A DNA stretch of 48,904 nucleotides from a virus. The translations under genes were made by a program, and so were the position numbers. The stretch covers positions 1 to 48,904 of IMG/VR virus record IMGVR_UViG_3300010375_000024. One strand, 5' to 3'. Every line of letters begins with the position of its first letter. Position 1 is the first letter of the stretch. Below, one piece after another: positions 31,201-46,037 of the stretch. A model generated the notes under the pieces. The model did not search any database. It was not told the DNA's origin and worked only from the letters and a program-made list of their open reading frames with translations.

Positions 31201-33188
31201 ACGCATCTAACCTGACGGCACAGTGTTATTGGTGGGAGAGTAACGAATCTGCGCCTGACTATAGTCCGGCCAACCCAACGATCTCTCGACACGTTTGGAC
31301 ACAGAATCCGACGAATTCAACCTTCACGGTCACGGTTGGCGCGCCGACTGGAGGATGTCCAAATTACTTGACTGCCCAAGGTCTGGGACAGTTGGGGTGC
31401 GGCTTCATCTATGGCCTCGGCGGCGTCATTCACATGGATTATTCGTTTCTTGGCACCGTAACATGTCCAGGTTCGGTAGTCTGCACCTTCGTCGCTACCC
31501 CGTCCTTCCCAACAACCTCCAGTCGCCTGGGAATCGCAATGATGGACACAGGGGGATTTCAGGGGGATTTCTATTTTGAGATGCGCCACGTGTACCAGAA
31601 GAATCACATCGAGTCGAAGTACGGCGACTACTGGAATATTGTAGGCAATGTATTCGATCGCCAGACAAATTGTGACAATGGAACGTTCTGCCAGAGTGAA
31701 GGGATTCACTGGACCGTTTCGGGTAATGGTAGCTACCAGGGTGACCCGATTAACTCGGCAACCTCTAGCAGTTACAGCACTGCTCGGCATAATATCTTTC
31801 GCGGACTCGCTGCCGGTATCGGTGGAACCGGCGAAACCTACGCAGTCCAAATCGGGGGGAATATCGCCTCTTGGGAGTGGGCTGGCTTCGGAAAGTCAGT
31901 ACAGAACACCATAGAGAACAATCTCTTCATCGATATCGGATCGTCCGAGTACACCAGATTCGGGCGGGACGGTTACATGGTGCTGCAATCGAATGCAGGC
32001 TACCCCTCTACCCAGCAGCCTACCCTTGGTTCGTGGATAGTTAAACACAACACCGGAGTCGATCTGAGGCACTTCGTGGTTCCGAGCTTTGCATTCGGCA
32101 CGACCTATGACTCAAACATCGCCGTGCCCTATAGATTTGGCGCGGAGAATCCGCTCTCCGGTACTACGGGAGCTTGTCCGGGTGGCGGTTGCCCATTTGC
32201 GCACGTTGCAGCGACAACACACCTCGGCGTAATTGGCGATATCGGAAACGGGTGGCTTCCGGATTTTGGTGGGGGCTACGTACAATCGTTCAATAGCGGC
32301 CTGATTGACAGCACGGCTGTGCTGAACAATAACATATTAATGAATCGTGCAGGGTACTTTTACGGGTCTACGGTTCCCACAAATTATCCAGCTTGCCCCA
32401 CCGGCACGATGGGCAAATGCACGTACCTCGTCCAATACACGGACACCATGCCGGGCGGGTTGACCCCCGATCCGTCCCTCTTATTCCAGACGTTTAACGA
32501 GCGCAACAACGCGCTACCGCCGACTGGTTCGAATTACAGGGCAAGCAATCTTCGGCTGGCCGCGGGCATGGCCGCTACCTATCCCGCCGCAGACGCACGG
32601 GATATCGGAGCGGACATCGATGAGATCGAAGCGATCACCGGGGCAAAGGGAGTCGACGTAGAAAAGGGAGTGGCGCAGTTCTCGGTTCGTTCCGCCCGCC
32701 AAATTTCGCCGGGCTCAACGACGGCCGCGATCTCGTACCTCTCGGACGGCCAGGTCTGCTCGATCAAGCTTTGGCCCAATACGTCCTACAGCGGATCGCC
32801 GACGGTCAGCATCACCGATAGCGGCGCTGCTGTGATTGGTGGCAGGGTGTCAGTTGGAGTAACGGGCCTTTCCGCTTCAACAAATTACCAGGGCAAGAGA
32901 ATTTGCGGCACTCAAGGAAGTGCGTCCGCGCATTACGATATTCTCTCCTTCACAACCACCCCAGCGACGCCGGTGCAGGTGCTGCAATTCACACCGCCGG
33001 CCGGCGTGGCGTCCTGCGAGATCGAGCATGGCTCGACATCATCGCTCGGATCCACCACTTCGCCGGTTAGTGTTTCTGCAGGAACCTGCTCTATCGCGCT
33101 GCCGGCGTCCGCGTTCTATCGGGTTGCGTACCTGGACAGCGGCTCAACGGTGATCCGCCGCGGCCAAATCCAGCAGCGAGGACTATAG
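28245..33188 (+). CDS. Very large parallel beta-helix adhesin/tailspike-like protein with signal peptide
   Basis: 1647 residues. Signal peptide MKTLFLLLLAAFSASSAAFG. Two right-handed beta-helix regions are visible: residues about 25-440 (repeats such as HNISHH, RNNFFLLN, AEIYNNTLFN) and about 450-1400, opened by a second CASGCDYTTVQAAGNAAVPG entry after a PPPPPPP linker near residue 444. A C-terminal beta-sandwich/Fn3-like region (about 1490-1647) ends in IRRGQIQQRGL. The fold is that of tailspike depolymerases and pectate-lyase-like adhesins. No catalytic residues can be named. Its 3' end overlaps the convergent PEP-CTERM gene by 98 bp. Confidence 0.7.
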   Translation: MKTLFLLLLAAFSASSAAFGACGGTTYNIGSGQTYATYALAFAALQADCPTTGTVFTASNTLHFTAGTYNVQVNAASGYAFGTTITARLILAFDSGAIVDGQNTRQYAVQGNQDHLTISGGEFKGGTLGGIGVTGNDFIGFNMNSHDSAGHCFMQSSSDGLLVHDSVFHDCANTGFFVASPTLTGTCEIYNITSHDNGDYGAAVWQPSCVIHDSLLYHNVNRAGLDITGANVVAYNNISHHNLSGTEVNAGGGILGGVILRNNFFLLNTEHNIDIGNGASAEIYNNTLFNATQTSGGNEILVVTPCPAGCAAPTIIKNNLIIGGSNETQYGLMLLDHSAGIVLDNNDLFFVDTGGGIPTNFATWGVTPATSFAGWKTLSGQDANSISANPGFTNAGGTSAVDYQWSSGSPAQNAGATISGFTIDYFGTTRTAPWDIGAFEYAGAPPPPPPPAGTLTVCASGCDYTTVQAAGNAAVPGNTIVIEAGYNNAGPLVLPDGTHGLTFKSSRIDAYPRNTRIVRNSPALAKIEQVTLGNGMAFALLPSAMSTLTTNAPHGFTIGEKVTVAAQRFSAYYCGSLCAPPYNMPYNNPFSTAGTVNVSGTAVTWLSGPTFTSQWIGGYMTIAGAPCNPCQITAVNSSTSVTLSASGGLLSGASFTMGFDIAVCEASRVGFINIRFDTHLANGMIVYFAGRTLPPPLQLNTPYYVINFATGSSWPINADKFQVSATLGGSPIILGPNWANTPISGIPYDPTGQDFTVVIPPLPAMDGSDMYVVSAPTTTSVQLSLTLGGSPVTFAQAVNGYNGGGFSNGFRIFGANPVYDMVFDGIELFPPDDNQVYYVFFAQGGVNSNFGEHFGINLLRCWAHGHDDQEDFPMSIINITGRNLEVGWSVVENSYSVYNDTQNIGITSTSNVYIHDNELKGATENIFSGGNYPWFAGVRNTEGLRVERNWLWKPLKYFHGLWPTLVDSTHFTIEQLESGTDCSTIDASNLTAQCYWWESNESAPDYSPANPTISRHVWTQNPTNSTFTVTVGAPTGGCPNYLTAQGLGQLGCGFIYGLGGVIHMDYSFLGTVTCPGSVVCTFVATPSFPTTSSRLGIAMMDTGGFQGDFYFEMRHVYQKNHIESKYGDYWNIVGNVFDRQTNCDNGTFCQSEGIHWTVSGNGSYQGDPINSATSSSYSTARHNIFRGLAAGIGGTGETYAVQIGGNIASWEWAGFGKSVQNTIENNLFIDIGSSEYTRFGRDGYMVLQSNAGYPSTQQPTLGSWIVKHNTGVDLRHFVVPSFAFGTTYDSNIAVPYRFGAENPLSGTTGACPGGGCPFAHVAATTHLGVIGDIGNGWLPDFGGGYVQSFNSGLIDSTAVLNNNILMNRAGYFYGSTVPTNYPACPTGTMGKCTYLVQYTDTMPGGLTPDPSLLFQTFNERNNALPPTGSNYRASNLRLAAGMAATYPAADARDIGADIDEIEAITGAKGVDVEKGVAQFSVRSARQISPGSTTAAISYLSDGQVCSIKLWPNTSYSGSPTVSITDSGAAVIGGRVSVGVTGLSASTNYQGKRICGTQGSASAHYDILSFTTTPATPVQVLQFTPPAGVASCEIEHGSTSSLGSTTSPVSVSAGTCSIALPASAFYRVAYLDSGSTVIRRGQIQQRGL

Positions 33189-33693
33189 CGATCAGCATAA
33201 GAAATGCCGTACGTGGCTCTGGGTTCGGAACGGTTACCTGCGCGCCTTGCACAGTCCAAACGCCAGGAACGTCTGAAAAAGCGGCTTCCGCGACGAGGTT
33301 ATTGATATAGGCGGAATCCCCCCGTGGCGATGTTCCCGCGCCGCCGCCGAAGTAGCCGTATTGTGAATTGAACCCGTTAACGTACCAGTCGGTCACGTTA
33401 CCATCCGCATCGACCGTTATGCTTGCCGATCCTTGCGGGTAGCAGGCGGGCGCATACGGCGGGCATCCTGGTGGGATGTAGCTGGTGAAGCCCATGCCGC
33501 GGCTGCCGTACAAGCCCCAGGCGGTTACTAACCCGTTGTCGGTTGTGACAGAAGCCGTCACGTGCCCACCTGGGAAGTAGATTTCCCATCCCCCAACGTA
33601 ATGGGTGAATTCGTTTCCGGTGTAGTTGTACGTGATTGGCGAGGCGTAGGCTGTGGCTGAGAAGAAAGCCGCTGCGATAATGAGTCTGTACAT
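33091..33693 (-). CDS. PEP-CTERM secreted protein
   Basis: 200 residues from ATG 33693 (an in-frame ATG at 33759 lacks a ribosome site). Signal peptide MYRLIIAAAFFSATAYAS, a beta-rich body with YNYTGNEFTHYVGGWEIYFP, and near the C-terminus VPNPEPRTAFLMLIAIVLAAG followed by a basic run. This is the three-part PEP-CTERM sorting signal recognised by exosortase in many biofilm-forming Gram-negative bacteria. It is usually at the very end of the protein; here about 25 extra residues follow, overlapping the beta-helix gene antisense. It implies a host with an exosortase system. Confidence 0.75.
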   Translation of the reverse strand: MYRLIIAAAFFSATAYASPITYNYTGNEFTHYVGGWEIYFPGGHVTASVTTDNGLVTAWGLYGSRGMGFTSYIPPGCPPYAPACYPQGSASITVDADGNVTDWYVNGFNSQYGYFGGGAGTSPRGDSAYINNLVAEAAFSDVPGVWTVQGAQVTVPNPEPRTAFLMLIAIVLAAGFGRGGSPLSRCPGTQPDRTRTPAAR

Positions 33694-33805: not shown

Positions 33806-34234
33806 TTACGCTGCTTGCACGAGAACCGTCAGTTTCTTCCCGACTGCAGCAAGCGCAGCTTCGATCTGATCGAGGCGTGAACGGTGTCTCAAACTGAAGA
33901 GGCGCTCAACGTTGCCTTTTGAAATCCCTATACGCCGGGCGAGTTCAGCTCTTCGAATACCCGAGGCGCGAAAAGCCCGATAGAGTTCCACTTTCGCGGC
34001 CGCCAGCGCGGGGAGTTCGATCACGCGGTATTTCCGGCCCCGGACTTTACCCTGCTGTGGAATTTCCTCTCCACGTTTGATTAATTCCTCGATGACAAGG
34101 GAGATCGCGTCTACTGCCATCTCGGTTGCTTCTTCTTCGGAGTCCCCTTGGGTAACGCCTTGGGGGAAATCGGGGAAGGTGACGACGAAACCTCCGTTTT
34201 CGGTGTCGGGTTCGAATAGTGCGTTGATCTGCAT
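33806..34234 (-). CDS. hicB: HicB antitoxin
   Basis: 142 residues from ATG 34234. The N-terminal partial RNase-H-like HicB fold is seen in NALFEPDTENGGFVVTFPDF, then PQGVTQGDSEEEATEMAVDA. The C-terminal part is a helix-turn-helix (ASGIRRAELARRIGISKGNV) for DNA binding. HicB neutralises the HicA RNase and represses its own operon. It is 8 bp downstream of hicA. An extension of the frame upstream to 34456 reads antisense through hicA and is rejected. Confidence 0.93.
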   Translation of the reverse strand: MQINALFEPDTENGGFVVTFPDFPQGVTQGDSEEEATEMAVDAISLVIEELIKRGEEIPQQGKVRGRKYRVIELPALAAAKVELYRAFRASGIRRAELARRIGISKGNVERLFSLRHRSRLDQIEAALAAVGKKLTVLVQAA

Positions 34235-34242
34235 GGGGCTCC

Positions 34243-34422
34243 TCACTTTTTGAGACCGAGCTTTTTCAATATGGCGTTGTAGGTCCCGGTCTTGATCTCT
34301 GTTGACGGGTGGCGCGGGATCTCTGTGAACTCGCCTCTGAGGTGCACGATGGTGTGCTTGGTGCCTTGAGTGAAGGTGCATCCCTGTTTCTTGAGCCATC
34401 GCTTCAACTCGTTCGCCGTCAT
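34243..34422 (-). CDS. hicA: HicA toxin, mRNA interferase
   Basis: 59 residues: MTANELKRWLKKQGCTFTQG, then the active His23 in GTKHTIVH, then GEFTEIPRHPSTEIKTGTYN and ILKKLGLK, the full double-stranded-RNA-binding-like HicA fold at normal length. It cuts mRNA in cells when HicB is lost. Toxin-first order and the 8-bp spacing to hicB are typical of hicAB. Probably a maintenance or phage-defence moron. Confidence 0.93.
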   Translation of the reverse strand: MTANELKRWLKKQGCTFTQGTKHTIVHLRGEFTEIPRHPSTEIKTGTYNAILKKLGLKK

Positions 34423-34425
34423 ATC

Positions 34426-34439
34426 TAAGAGTACTCTTA
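34426..34439. promoter_or_regulatory. Perfect palindrome, likely HicB operator
   Basis: TAAGAGTACTCTTA is a perfect 14-bp palindrome ending 3 bp upstream of the hicA start codon. The core GAGTACTC recurs in partial form nearby (GTGAGTACC at 34441, TTAGTACTTA at 34463). HicB antitoxins with an HTH domain bind such sites to autoregulate. Confidence 0.65.
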
Positions 34440-34481
34440 TGTGAGTACCAACACAAGGCGAATTAGTACTTAGAGACGGTA

Positions 34482-41280: not shown

Positions 41281-41511
41281 CTATTTCCTGTCGATCTGAG
41301 TCGCAATCTTGGTGGTGCCCTCGGCCTCGTCCACGATCGCAATGCGAATTGTTCCGGCCGTGTCCTCAAATACCAACTTCAGATTGTGGGTTCGCGGATC
41401 GATAAATACTCCGCGCACCGGCCCCCAGGATTTCAGCGTCCCTGTTTGGAACTGGGCCACGCCATGCATCGCGAAAAGCGCGATCCCTACACCAATGAGA
41501 ATCTTTTTCAT
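41281..41511 (-). CDS. Small secreted protein
   Basis: 76 residues from ATG 41511, overlapping the basic-protein stop by ATGA. Signal peptide MKKILIGVGIALFAMHGVAQ, then a beta-rich body with VFIDPRTHNLKLVFEDTAG. The longer in-frame reading is rejected. No family recognised. Confidence 0.6.
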   Translation of the reverse strand: MKKILIGVGIALFAMHGVAQFQTGTLKSWGPVRGVFIDPRTHNLKLVFEDTAGTIRIAIVDEAEGTTKIATQIDRK

Positions 41512-41726
41512 CGTCTCGCCTTCCCCTGCTTCTTCCCTGCCCTCTTCTTCTTCGCCTTCAACTTCTCCGGGTGCAGTTTGTAGTACGCCTTCCACCTGGC
41601 TTCGACAGCCTTCTTTCCTGCCGCCTTCCGTTCAGCCGGGGTACGATTCGCCGCCGTCGCCTTCCCCCCTGCCCTGCCTAACTCCGTTACATCCACAACC
41701 TGCGTTACTTTTACCTTCTTTCCCAT
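41508..41726 (-). CDS. Small basic protein related to the GRxGGK group
   Basis: 72 residues: VDVTELGRAGGKATAANRTP then AERKAAGKKAVEARWKAYYK and a very Lys-rich end. Shares the G-R-x-G-G-K / T-P-A-E-R / A-R-W layout with proteins at 34482 and 42910. Probably nucleic-acid binding by charge. Coupled to the small secreted gene that follows. Confidence 0.65.
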   Translation of the reverse strand: MGKKVKVTQVVDVTELGRAGGKATAANRTPAERKAAGKKAVEARWKAYYKLHPEKLKAKKKRAGKKQGKARR

Positions 41727-41885: not shown

Positions 41886-42530
41886 TTGGGCGAAAGGGGT
41901 ATAGGCAGTGACGATCCCGGGTCTAAAAGTTCCGTGGACCACGTAAAGAAAGTCCGCCTTCCCCTGTCTCGGATCAAGCGCAGCCAGCCAACCTACGCGA
42001 AACTGCTCAAGCTGGTCGACCCGCGATCCCGGACGCCCTTTGCCTGGACAGGTGATTTCTTGCGTCCAGGTGCAACCATCCCCGAATCCGAATTGTGGCC
42101 GAACGGAACTTTCCCCCGCACACCCCTCATCGTCGAATTCGCCGGCGCCGAAAATCCCGCCCGGGGACACAACCGCCACCTGAGCGACAACACGGTCATC
42201 CTGTGGCGCTACGAACGCTCGGAGGCGACGGAGGGGAAGTTTATCGAGGTGGGGCGGGTCAGCGCGCCAGGCGGTATGTGGGCTATGCTCCTCGAGCCTC
42301 TGGTGCGGGATGCCATGGCGCAAGAGTCGGGATTTGTGGCACTCGACTTTGATCTGATTCGCTCACGGATTACCCGGGTGATCGCCGCGGAGCTCGACCT
42401 GGTGGGAAATGGAGACCGGGCGAGGCTTCTGACGCTGGTCCATGACGAGCTCGCCGGCCGCATCGCGGAATGGAGCGAGCCTGGATTCGGGGAGCGCGCG
42501 GGGTTCGGGCCTTCGTCGCGTGTGGTTTAA
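41886..42530 (+). CDS. Unknown protein controlled by the palindromic promoter
   Basis: Up to 214 residues from TTG 41886; GTG 41934 is an alternative. The N-terminus is basic (VRLPLSRIKRSQPTYAKLL), then FAWTGDFLRPGATIPESELW, PLIVEFAGAENPARGHNRHL, VILWRYERSE and a helical C-terminal half (LEPLVRDAMAQESGFVALDF). I recognise no family. A single gene behind a strongly repressible-looking promoter. Confidence 0.6.
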   Translation: MGERGIGSDDPGSKSSVDHVKKVRLPLSRIKRSQPTYAKLLKLVDPRSRTPFAWTGDFLRPGATIPESELWPNGTFPRTPLIVEFAGAENPARGHNRHLSDNTVILWRYERSEATEGKFIEVGRVSAPGGMWAMLLEPLVRDAMAQESGFVALDFDLIRSRITRVIAAELDLVGNGDRARLLTLVHDELAGRIAEWSEPGFGERAGFGPSSRVV

Positions 42531-42703
42531 AAAAATAGTCGCGGGATCCGGCGGCGGCGGGCGGCGTTTTCCGTTTGTTCCGTCCTTTTCTCCTGCGCAG
42601 AAACACCCTCCGAACCGCCGCCGCTGCCGCTATTTTATTTCTTACGCATTTCCTTCTTAAGGCATCTATATACACAGAAGGACATGCCATGGTATGCGTG
42701 GCC
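42531..42703. other. Non-coding stretch: GC-rich inverted repeat then AT-rich DNA
   Basis: CGGCGGCGG (about 42552-42560) can pair with CCGCCGCCG (42615-42623). It is followed by an AT-richer segment (about 42630-42675, with TATTTTATTTCTTACG and TCTATATACACA) immediately before the hairpin array. An AT-rich segment beside regularly spaced repeats is the usual arrangement of an iteron-type replication origin. Confidence 0.4.
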
Positions 42704-42835
42704 CCGCAATTCTTTGCGGTATCCTCCCGCAATAGTTTGCGGCACCTCACCGCAATAGTTTGCGGTCACACCCCGCAATTCTTTGCGGTGTGACCCCGCA
42801 ATGGCTTGCGGTCACTAGGGCGCAAGGAATTGCGG
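42704..42835. repeat. Array of six CCGCAA-N4-TTGCGG hairpin units at 23-bp spacing
   Basis: Units begin at 42704, 42727, 42750, 42773, 42796 and 42820. Each is 16 bp with perfect 6-bp arms CCGCAA/TTGCGG and a 4-nt centre (TTCT, TAGT, TAGT, TTCT, TGGC); the last is in reverse orientation with one end base changed (GCGCAA GGAA TTGCGG). Spacers are 7 or 8 bp and differ in sequence. The 23-bp period is not a multiple of three, so it is not a protein repeat. Possible roles are initiator iterons, clustered operators for a dimeric protein, or tandem RNA hairpins. Confidence 0.92.
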
Positions 42836-42851
42836 TCCGATACAAAGTGCT

Positions 42852-42902
42852 CGAAAATAACTTCCGAAACCCCTTGCGTTTATTTTCGGCGGGTACCATA
42901 CT
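42852..42902 (+). promoter_or_regulatory. Promoter with overlapping 9-bp inverted repeat
   Basis: TTGCGT (42874-42879), 17-bp spacer, CATACT (42897-42902), the same -10 as the early promoter at 34783. CGAAAATAA (42852-42860) and TTATTTTCG (42880-42888) are perfect arms around the -35 box, a likely operator. The expected transcription start is at about 42909, next to the GTG at 42910, so the mRNA may have no leader. Confidence 0.5.
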
Positions 42903-43162: not shown

Positions 43163-43215
43163 AGTAAGTGCGCAACTCGACTTAGTACTACTAGTACTGA
43201 CTCTTGGCACTTACT
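43163..43215. promoter_or_regulatory. Large inverted repeat enclosing two TAGTACT sites
   Basis: AGTAAGTGC (43163-43171) and GCACTTACT (43207-43215) are perfect 9-bp arms around 35 bp that contain TAGTACT twice (43183 and 43192, 9-bp period). AGTACT cores also occur at the hicAB operator (34426-34472). It looks like a multi-site operator for a dimeric regulator. Confidence 0.45.
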
Positions 43216-43519
43216 CAGGGAGGGCGCATTTAGTAACGTCACCGTTACGCCGTCTTCAACTACTTGACAATAATGTATGTTATCGGAAGTTCGGCCTAGG
43301 CCGCGCATTCGAAACCATTCCATTACGTGAAATCACTTCCACGTCCAGCCGCAACAGCGCTCCAACCGCGCCCTCCTGTTGTATTTCTTTGCGGACCGGA
43401 ATTGTCATCCGTCCACCGCCGACGCGGCGTCGTAAAATACCAACACAACTACTTTCGACTTTTCCAGGGCTGAACGTAGTTGATGAAGGCGAAAACATAA
43501 GCGCGTCGTGCGAAGGGCC

Positions 43520-43704: not shown

Positions 43705-45156
43705 ATGAGCGTCCGCGAAGCCAAGCAAGCGCCGAAAACAAAACGGCCGCGGATCAAGCGCACACCCAAGCCTCGAGCGACCACTACCGCACGGATCCCG
43801 GCGAGGTGGAAAATCCACCCCGACTACAACGATTGCCCGGGCAAGTGGTATCCCGCGCCCGCAAGCCTCCGAATGCTCGGCAAGAAAATGCCAAGCGGCT
43901 GCTCCTGGGCCTTGATGAACTTTATCAATGCGTCGATGAACGACAACTATCGAGCGGGCCACGAATACTCGGACGTGCCGGCGGCAAAGTGGAGCGACAA
44001 CCGGGTCCATGGCTTGGCGACGGCGCCGATGTCGATCCGGGACCTCGCCGAGGAGATCGGTTTCAGCCTGCGAGCGGTCGAATACAACCTGTCGGACATT
44101 CTGAAGCGCGGCGCGGTGGCGAGGATGGTCTCCGAGGACCGGCTGTTTCAGTTCACCGTTTCGTTCCTCCACTTCCATGAGGTGCTTGATCCGGAGGCGG
44201 AGCCAGACCCGGGAGCTGGGCAAGAGGCCGCCGCGGAACCGGCGCCGGAAGCAAAACCGGACGAGATCCCGACGGAGGAAAAGCCAAAGGCCAGGTTCAA
44301 GGCGCGGGGGTCGGAGCGCATCGAGACCCCGCCTATTTCCGGACTGGTTCTCAGCGAGGACGTCGCCAAGCAGGTCTCGTTCGACTTCGAGGTGGTGGCG
44401 GGCGAGATGCGGATCAACCGGTTCGAGCTACTTTCGGCCGGCCAAACCGAGGCAAACGGTCAAGGCGAAACAGGGGCGAAACCTCAGGGTGAATTGCAAG
44501 GCGAAGAAAAAGGGAACGCAGAGGGCGAAAAAAAGGCGAACGCGATGCTGATTCCAGAGGGCTTACGCGAAAACACACCGCAATTCATTACGGTGTCGAC
44601 TGCCCTGCCCTTTTTGGCTCCAGAGGAACCTGAAACAAGCGCCATAATTGAGGCCGTCGAAAGCCTTCGCGCCCGAACCGGAAAACCGCTGTCATACGCC
44701 GTTCGGGTCTCTGGCGATTATATCGAAGTCGCGATATCCCCACGGGTGAGTGGGTCCGGGGACTCCCCTGCCCCGCCCCCGCGGCCATCGCACCCCGACT
44801 CGATAGCGCCGATCCTTGAAGCCTTCCTTCCTGCCGGCGGAATTCTCAGCGAATCGGATGCCCGGCGCTTACTCCGGAACTGCCAGGGCGCGACAGCGGT
44901 CGAAATAGGTGCCCGTGCCGCTCAGTTGATCCCGGACCTGGTGGCGGCTAAACAGCGCGGTGCTTTCCGGACGACGGTCGTGGGAGTCTTGCTTAAACAG
45001 CTGCCTGAATTCTTCCAAGGCGAGGGGGTCGACATGTGGCGACGCGACCGCCAGACGAAGGAGGACGAAGCGGCGGACGAAGAACAGGTGGCCGAACAAG
45101 AACGCGAATTGCGCGAGTATTTTGCGCAGAAAAAGAACACAAGGGGTGCGTCATGA
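43705..45156 (+). CDS. Winged-helix protein, probable replication initiator/organiser
   Basis: 483 residues. Basic N-terminus (TKRPRIKRTPKPRATTTARI), a winged-helix region at about residues 60-145 (SGCSWALMNFINASMNDNYR, then MSIRDLAEEIGFSLRAVEYN), a Glu/Ala/Lys-rich linker, and a helical C-terminal domain (PILEAFLPAGGILSESDARR ... KQLPEFFQGEGVDMWRR). The layout resembles phage replisome organisers, and it heads the operon 0.9 kb after the hairpin array. A degenerate array unit lies inside it at 44578-44593 (14 of 16 bases). Exact family not recognised; a transcription regulator is the alternative. Confidence 0.6.
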   Translation: MSVREAKQAPKTKRPRIKRTPKPRATTTARIPARWKIHPDYNDCPGKWYPAPASLRMLGKKMPSGCSWALMNFINASMNDNYRAGHEYSDVPAAKWSDNRVHGLATAPMSIRDLAEEIGFSLRAVEYNLSDILKRGAVARMVSEDRLFQFTVSFLHFHEVLDPEAEPDPGAGQEAAAEPAPEAKPDEIPTEEKPKARFKARGSERIETPPISGLVLSEDVAKQVSFDFEVVAGEMRINRFELLSAGQTEANGQGETGAKPQGELQGEEKGNAEGEKKANAMLIPEGLRENTPQFITVSTALPFLAPEEPETSAIIEAVESLRARTGKPLSYAVRVSGDYIEVAISPRVSGSGDSPAPPPRPSHPDSIAPILEAFLPAGGILSESDARRLLRNCQGATAVEIGARAAQLIPDLVAAKQRGAFRTTVVGVLLKQLPEFFQGEGVDMWRRDRQTKEDEAADEEQVAEQERELREYFAQKKNTRGAS

Positions 45157-45464: not shown

Positions 45465-46037
45465 GTGGATAGAGAAGAGGGGACTGACTACCCACAAGAC
45501 CTGGTTACGACTGGGAAACCGCAGCAACCGGACCATGAGTGGCTTCCGAAAAAAGAAGCCGCCGAACTACTCGGGAGAGCCATCGGCCAACTCGAACGGC
45601 GAGCCAAGGATGGTTATATCGCAAAGAGAGCAGAGGAGAAAAAGCCGTGGGAAAAATCGGCGCGCGTTTATTATTCCCGAGCCGACATACTGGCGCTTGT
45701 CAGAGGGGAGCCAAATAGGTATCCGCGGCTTATGTCCGAGAGGAGCACGGCGGGAAACGGCGGCAACGACGGCGACGGTAACAGAGGCAGTAACGATAGT
45801 CAGAGCAACGGCGGCAGCCAGTGGGACGGAGCCGATACAGCACGCACCGCTATGCCGGCGAAGAAACCATGGCTGACACTCGCCGAGGCGTCCCAGTATT
45901 CAGGGCTGTCCCAGGATTTCCTACGGAAGCAAGCGGAGGCGGGAACCATCCATTCGGTCAATGAGAACGTCAGCGGCCAGGGCGAGCCTGCCTGGATGTT
46001 CTCCCGTAAGGGATTGAAGAAGGTGGGGAAAACGTGA
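45465..46037 (+). CDS. Protein with two excisionase-type HTH domains
   Basis: 190 residues from GTG 45465. Domain 1 (residues about 26-80): EWLPKKEAAELLGRAIGQLE, RRAKDGYI, VYYSRADILALV. A Gly/Asn/Ser linker (about 92-128). Domain 2 (about 134-188): WLTLAEASQYSGLSQDFLRK, QAEAGTI, AWMFSRKGL. Both follow the MerR/excisionase winged-helix plan and resemble each other, so the protein can probably bridge two DNA half-sites. It could be an excisionase or an operon regulator. Confidence 0.7.
   Translation: MDREEGTDYPQDLVTTGKPQQPDHEWLPKKEAAELLGRAIGQLERRAKDGYIAKRAEEKKPWEKSARVYYSRADILALVRGEPNRYPRLMSERSTAGNGGNDGDGNRGSNDSQSNGGSQWDGADTARTAMPAKKPWLTLAEASQYSGLSQDFLRKQAEAGTIHSVNENVSGQGEPAWMFSRKGLKKVGKT

Follow-up and report, generated by a model that had tools for sequence, protein, structure and literature searches.

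Few uncultured phages have an annotated replication origin. The closest described system for the locus studied here is the origin of phage lambda. Passages of PMC7466680 describe the lambda O protein as a dimer, its iterons as imperfect inverted repeats, and unwinding as requiring an adjoining AT-rich region; related phages with six iterons are also described there. In the annotated lambda genome (J02459), the four iterons lie inside gene O, their starts 20, 24, and 23 bp apart, and the AT-rich segment follows on their 3' side. When the sequence around ori was sampled every 20 bases, the least stable 50-mer started one base after the fourth iteron.

A second point of comparison is the Streptomyces plasmid pIJ101, whose sps palindromes are bound by SpdA2 according to sections of PMC4170104. 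As presented in those sections, sps resembles the array described below in being a short repeated palindrome, bound in its case by a plasmid-encoded protein, and differs from it in its copy number (one to three), in its location within or at the gene of its binder, in serving plasmid stability, and in its sequence. The literature that we found concerns lambda and plasmid iterons. In a search of titles and abstract openings that covered mostly open literature, we found none describing an O-type phage origin separated from the gene of its initiator. In a paper on Acidobacteriota viruses (PMC11924767), a word search of the main text finds nothing that begins with "replication" or "iteron."

Results and Discussion

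A periodic array of palindromes

The window analyzed here is a stretch of 48,904 bp, the whole of an IMG/VR virus record (IMGVR_UViG_3300010375_000024). Between a gene end at 42530 and rightward genes from about 42910, it carries an intergenic array of six palindromic units. The array, the segment beside it, and one outlying site are as follows:

Predicted DNA-unwinding element: 42630–42679, no strand, least stable 50-mer of the 48,904-bp record
Putative iteron 1: 42704–42719, plus strand, CCGCAA-TTCT-TTGCGG, exact match
Putative iteron 2: 42727–42742, plus strand, center TAGT, exact match, 23 bp from unit 1
Putative iteron 3: 42750–42765, plus strand, center TAGT, exact match, 23 bp from unit 2
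Putative iteron 4: 42773–42788, plus strand, center TTCT, exact match, 23 bp from unit 3
Putative iteron 5: 42796–42811, plus strand, center TGGC, exact match, 23 bp from unit 4
Putative iteron 6: 42820–42835, minus strand, one mismatch, center reversed, 24 bp from unit 5
Seventh near-site: 44575–44596, plus strand, inside the gene that starts at 43705, a 22-bp near-palindrome symmetric at 18 of 22 positions

The five exact units read CCGCAANNNNTTGCGG, and the sixth reads GCGCAAGGAATTGCGG, with one mismatch. The initial annotation had described a strictly periodic array of six units with invariant arms, variable centers and spacers, and an inverted last unit. Our analysis bears out the periodicity (steps of 23, 23, 23, 23, and then 24 bp) and the inversion, as the center of the sixth unit reads TTCC on the other strand and resembles the TTCT of units 1 and 4. 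The invariance of the arms stands for the five exact units and fails for the sixth, which has one change in its left arm. The variability elsewhere is real: pairwise identity among the five exact units reaches 120/120 in arm columns and only 22/40 in centers and 24/70 in spacers. Counted as invariant columns, the same contrast is 12/12 for the arms against 1/11 for all others (Fisher P ~ 1e-5). Spacers that are near-random at a fixed length between unchanged arms lead us to infer from the sequence that the array was shaped by selection for protein binding at spaced sites and not by recent duplication.

With up to two mismatches allowed, the window holds 14 matches to the motif, where shuffled copies average 4.09 and 0 of 100 shuffles reach that count. 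The units are confined to the array and the one near-site, whose core (44578–44593) carries one mismatch; base composition predicts 0.17 sites with at most one mismatch in the whole record. Palindromes of the 6-N4-6 form are themselves ordinary in number across the whole record (16, against a mean of 14.0 in 20 base-shuffled copies), and none outside the array recurs even twice at a constant step of 16–39 bp. Apparent published counterparts of the motif were rejected: in PMC4170104 the matching letters are primers and not sps, the PhaR motif does not fit, and another match is a helicase-assay oligonucleotide.

The adjoining AT-rich segment

The AT-rich DNA that had been remarked on one side of the array holds the least stable 50-mer of the record, as predicted from nearest-neighbor stacking energies only. 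This segment ends 24 bp short of iteron 1, on the side of the array that faces away from the candidate initiator gene at 43705–45156. Over the whole record, the flank ranks first among 40-mers (42631–42670) and 50-mers and second among 60-mers, and at lengths of 30, 70, and 80 it is beaten by 20, 22, and 138 less stable windows. Among 2000 random blocks equal in size, 0.6% contain a 50-mer this unstable, a figure that somewhat overstates the surprise because intergenic DNA tends to be AT-rich.

Other symmetric elements lie nearby. Immediately right of the array, at 42852–42888, is an AT-rich inverted repeat (CGAAAATAA / TTATTTTCG) whose loop is 19 bases long; it could serve as an operator or as another melting element. 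Further right, between the genes named P0002 and P0001 below, are the palindrome GTAACG-N4-CGTTAC (43233–43248) and an inverted repeat around TAGTACT (about 43179–43203); the stretch from about 43179 to 43248 likewise belongs to the record's least stable 100-mers.

Gene content of the record

The record starts with head genes, with PHROG matches for the portal, the maturation protease, and the major head protein, and it ends with small genes, of which two encode helix-turn-helix domains. A GpA-type terminase ATPase (PF05876) was not found in the record, which may therefore be a fragment. For the major head protein, all relatives found are distant, the best at 39.9% in phage records and those in IMG/VR at 37–40%; two of the three IMG/VR records with such relatives were searched for the motif with up to one mismatch, and it was absent from both. 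The genes closest to the array are as follows:

P0003: 41886–42530, plus strand, on the other side of the array, gene-like codon pattern
P0002: 42910–43152, plus strand, small basic repeat protein, from translation
P0001: 43705–45156, plus strand, candidate initiator of 483 aa, winged-helix-like stretch at about residues 95–145

Neither P0003 nor P0002 matches a PHROG or Pfam family at E 0.01. P0002 perhaps belongs to a rightward operon, and its codon pattern is not gene-like. Other DNA-binding proteins are encoded at 45465 (HTH_17), 46392 (HTH_32), and 33806 (HicB-HTH); no IMG/VR relatives were found for P0003 or the 46392 protein. The 33806–34456 product (minus strand) combines a HicB-like antitoxin domain with a C-terminal helix-turn-helix and could be the repressor of the phage. 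On the same strand, 33091–33693 encodes a possible PEP-CTERM surface protein (Pfam E 0.17, below cut-off), which hints at a cargo gene and at the host group. This protein, a short basic repeat protein (41508–41726), and the look of several secretion signals suggest that the host may belong to the Acidobacteriota. No DnaB_C helicase domain was matched in the record; helicase loaders were sought through family scans of chosen ORFs.

Arrays with the same half-site in other phages

Comparisons were made in IMG/VR. Tight viral scans returned L006 and L007, where a pair 22 bp apart lies in the 5' coding part of related helix-turn-helix genes, and L128 and L129, palindrome pairs with identical centers. 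A relaxed scan for two CGCAA-N4-TTGCG units gave 60 loci. All 112 ORFs of at least 80 aa over these arrays were scanned against PHROGs, and five loci had no such ORF. At nine of the 60 loci the array lies in a gene of a PHROG replication-initiation or primosomal family (L134, L145, L146, L139, L159, L184, L148, L183, and L188), a membership assigned from six scanned representatives together with the sequences, with the L183 match at E 0.0013. At two more, L161 and L163, it lies in a winged-helix gene with no initiator match, the best PHROG of L161 being a transcriptional regulator. A Pfam helix-turn-helix precedes the array in five of six representatives, above the curated cut-off in L161 and L183; that of L134 is visible by eye only.

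These 11 in-gene loci are not independent and fall into six families (L134/L145/L146, L139/L159/L184, L148, L161/L163, L183, and L188). Ten of them have the least stable 50-mer of their fetched 5–15 kb within 130 bp of the array, against 1/49 of the other loci; by family, five of six pass this test. The exception is L148, where 0.1% of windows are less stable. With the groups "coding repeats" and "rest" sorted by eye, the sign is seen at 0/15 coding-repeat loci, 0/2 other helix-turn-helix loci (L006 and L007), and 1/32 remaining loci, the single case being L147, a pair between divergently read ORFs. By gene direction, the least stable nearby segment is 3' of the array in all 11.

The in-gene arrays share with the window the half-site core, the N4 center, the AT-rich neighbor and, in five of the six families, steps of 20–25 bp (L134 has 33 and 21). 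They differ from it in having two or three exact core units, in lying inside a gene, and in their flanking bases. No significant sequence relation was found between the proteins of these arrays and those of the window.

As a control we scanned for ACGCA-N4-TGCGT, whose composition is the same, and obtained 26 loci. One of these (L194) lies inside an initiator gene and has the least stable 50-mer adjoining its array; the stability test covered this one control locus of the 26. Plain counts in initiators are thus 9/60 for the test motif and 1/26 for the control. Since the control motif also hits an initiator gene, the motif alone is a weak sign, and spaced palindromes with an unstable neighbor are a stronger one. 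Separately, 13 of the 26 control loci have a spacing of 31–33 bp. Pairs 31–32 bp apart (L190, L196, L197–L199, L206, L208, L210, L212, and L213, several being mutual copies) look like a recurrent operator arrangement.

The pairs in L006 (2464–2501) and L007 (867–904) have the full CCGCAA-N4-TTGCGG form; their neighbors are GcrA-like by eye, and in L006 also DnaA-C-like. Residues common to the two proteins at this position come mostly from codons in the arms of the palindromes. The same holds for sps in SpdA2, and the two loci are closer to sps/SpdA2 than the window is. Having no AT-rich neighbor, they fail the stability test; nor do they match an initiator, and we set them aside as something different.

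Initiator genes sampled independently of the motif

We also started from the initiator side. The O-like family phrog_678 was searched in 369 genomes and matched in 111, and the best 30 of these 111 loci were examined. At least three similar palindromes, mostly 22–24 bp apart, are present at 4/30 of these best loci. The steps are 22, 22, and 23 bp in L218, 22, 33, 23, and 22 bp in L220, and 24 and 23 bp in L222, and L235 has six palindromes with every step at 23 bp, placed after what appears by eye to be the winged-helix part of the initiator. Among 3.5-kb background phage chunks, from which those holding either motif were left out before counting, 4/125 show a cluster of this kind at any spacing; a single one of the four is at 20–25 bp, and its centers are identical.

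The gene in L235 resembles the window in its six palindromic units at exactly 23-bp steps and differs in its arms (GGCAA/TTGCC), N6 centers, greater arm variation, and position inside the gene. Only L222 among the four has the least stable 50-mer beside the array; less stable windows make up 1.3% in L235, 2.8% in L218, and 7.0% in L220. CGCAA-N4-TTGCG occurs in none of the best 30 of 111 O-like loci, so the motif itself is not diagnostic, and with the counts for test and control loci given above, this weakens the CGCAA half-site as a marker of initiators. The argument for an origin is carried by geometry and the AT-rich neighbor, not by the motif. The earlier case for selection on a dimer-binding site comes out strengthened by these comparisons, with lambda, with the in-gene arrays, and with L235.

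The candidate initiator

P0001 starts about 870 bp from the array. Its GC content at codon positions is gene-like, and its helix-turn-helix signal is weak (HTH_24 at E 0.21, below cut-off; the 1sfx chain at E 1). We built a profile from five initiators with in-gene arrays, namely L194 and four that the test scan had yielded. Against it, residues 111–142 of P0001, at the helix-turn-helix, align with an hhalign P of 0.011 at a probability of only 4%, and hmmsearch places P0001 eighth among 426 window frames (E 8.8). No PHROG matches P0001 at E 0.01 (the best is an unknown family at E 0.25), it has no HTH_36 match, and no relatives were found in IMG/VR, phage records, or plasmid records. Searches of 395 and 392 genomes from two phyla returned two weak matches each, rejected as unrelated proteins or chance frames. 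Structure predictions of P0001 and its N-terminal part were too poor for a structure search. Its probable recognition helix, LRAVEYNL, resembles by eye those of L006, L007, and others; such a pattern is common in these folds, so we gave the likeness no weight.

A putative origin outside the candidate initiator gene

We propose that the array is probably the initiator-binding half of a phage replication origin built on the plan of lambda ori and lying outside the initiator gene, a reading drawn from sequence comparison. The O-type features present are six 16-bp hyphenated palindromes, steps of 23–24 bp, and an adjoining segment predicted to melt easily. Iterons within an initiator gene and an AT-rich segment 3' of them are absent; by eye, no winged-helix protein spans the array in any of the six frames. 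Compared with lambda, tandem imperfect inverted repeats at 20–24-bp steps and an adjoining AT-rich segment are shared, and the window differs in having six units, an intergenic position, another half-site, and an AT-rich segment that faces away from the candidate initiator. With the array outside the initiator gene and its AT-rich side away from P0001, we do not file the locus as a lambdoid origin, although it would work like one.

In the proposed mechanism, a dimeric winged-helix initiator, most likely P0001, would bind each 16-bp palindrome. Six dimers at 23-bp steps would then form a nucleoprotein complex resembling the lambda O-some, which would melt the AT-rich element at 42630–42679 and allow the replicative helicase to load. 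A further scheme, which we put forward tentatively and which could well be wrong, is that this is a split O-type origin: the cassette of iterons and unwinding element left the initiator gene, the seventh, in-gene palindrome couples replication to initiator expression, and unrelated winged-helix initiators converged on CGCAA-N4-TTGCG with 20–25-bp steps.

Alternative explanations

The array might instead be an operator cluster, on whose six cooperative sites a repressor or early regulator silences or times a promoter on the right or on the AT-rich side. Rightward genes do follow the array, further DNA-binding proteins are encoded in the record, a minus-strand promoter-like match sits on the AT-rich side (42660–42632), and the region has 3 promoter-like sites against 1.5 in shuffles. 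Some control-motif pairs are operator-like as well, with no ORF of at least 80 aa over 8/26 loci. We nevertheless consider operators rather unlikely. A plus-strand sigma-70-type match is missing immediately right of the array, although that consensus may not be the one used by the host; a constant 23-bp step over six units is the O-type iteron pattern, whereas in 17/22 two-unit loci of the control scan the units are more than 25 bp apart; and a regulatory cluster does not predict the least stable 50-mer beside it, though promoters are also AT-rich.

Some plasmid centromeres typically have binding sites in tandem at even spacing, and a parS/parC-like array could segregate a prophage maintained as a plasmid. 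No tyrosine integrase domain (PF00589), the one integrase type sought, was found in the record, so an extrachromosomal prophage is possible. A centromere would not need the AT-rich element, and no ParA-type ATPase (PF13614) was matched at E up to 1 in this perhaps incomplete record, which makes the centromere improbable.

The initial annotation had offered three options, a phage origin, a clustered silencer, and an RNA decoy, and the comparisons above have lent support to the origin. The decoy has lost ground with the other forms of tandem RNA hairpin, a terminator or processing signal, and an RNA element now seems very improbable. The plus-strand transcript is predicted to fold at −90 kcal/mol (z −5.2), with 0/200 shuffles as good, but such folds come with DNA palindromes anyway, and the minimum-energy fold does not resolve into six individual hairpins. 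No Rfam family matched at gathering thresholds, and the exact 23-bp period with random spacers fits a DNA-binding complex better than RNA stems.

A dispersed REP-like host repeat captured by the phage is the least credible of these accounts: similar palindrome pairs do occur throughout one Chloroflexi MAG, which supplies 105 of the 120 matches listed in the tandem-unit scan, but that element has two units mostly 20–21 bp apart and no shown link to the phage, and the units of the record are limited to the places given above. The MAG (bin_187, JAIFLK contigs, within L009–L127) carries CCGCAA-N4-TTGCGG twice per element, as a REP-like family. With so large a share of the matches listed coming from one MAG, the tandem-unit scan says little about other genomes; among the 15 non-MAG loci listed, only L111 has a spacing of 20–25 bp (24).

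Implications

The analysis joins three signs that can be read from sequence: regular palindromes at 20–25 bp, an adjoining least stable 50-mer, and a winged-helix initiator in or near the array. If the array is an origin as proposed, O-type origins would be detachable from the initiator gene and the places in which to search for them would widen. The locus would then also offer a minimal replicon, as a candidate, for hosts of a group that has been little studied. If the tentative reading of convergence among unrelated initiators is true as well, regular palindromes beside the least stable 50-mer would offer an origin test for uncultured phages that needs nothing beyond their sequence.
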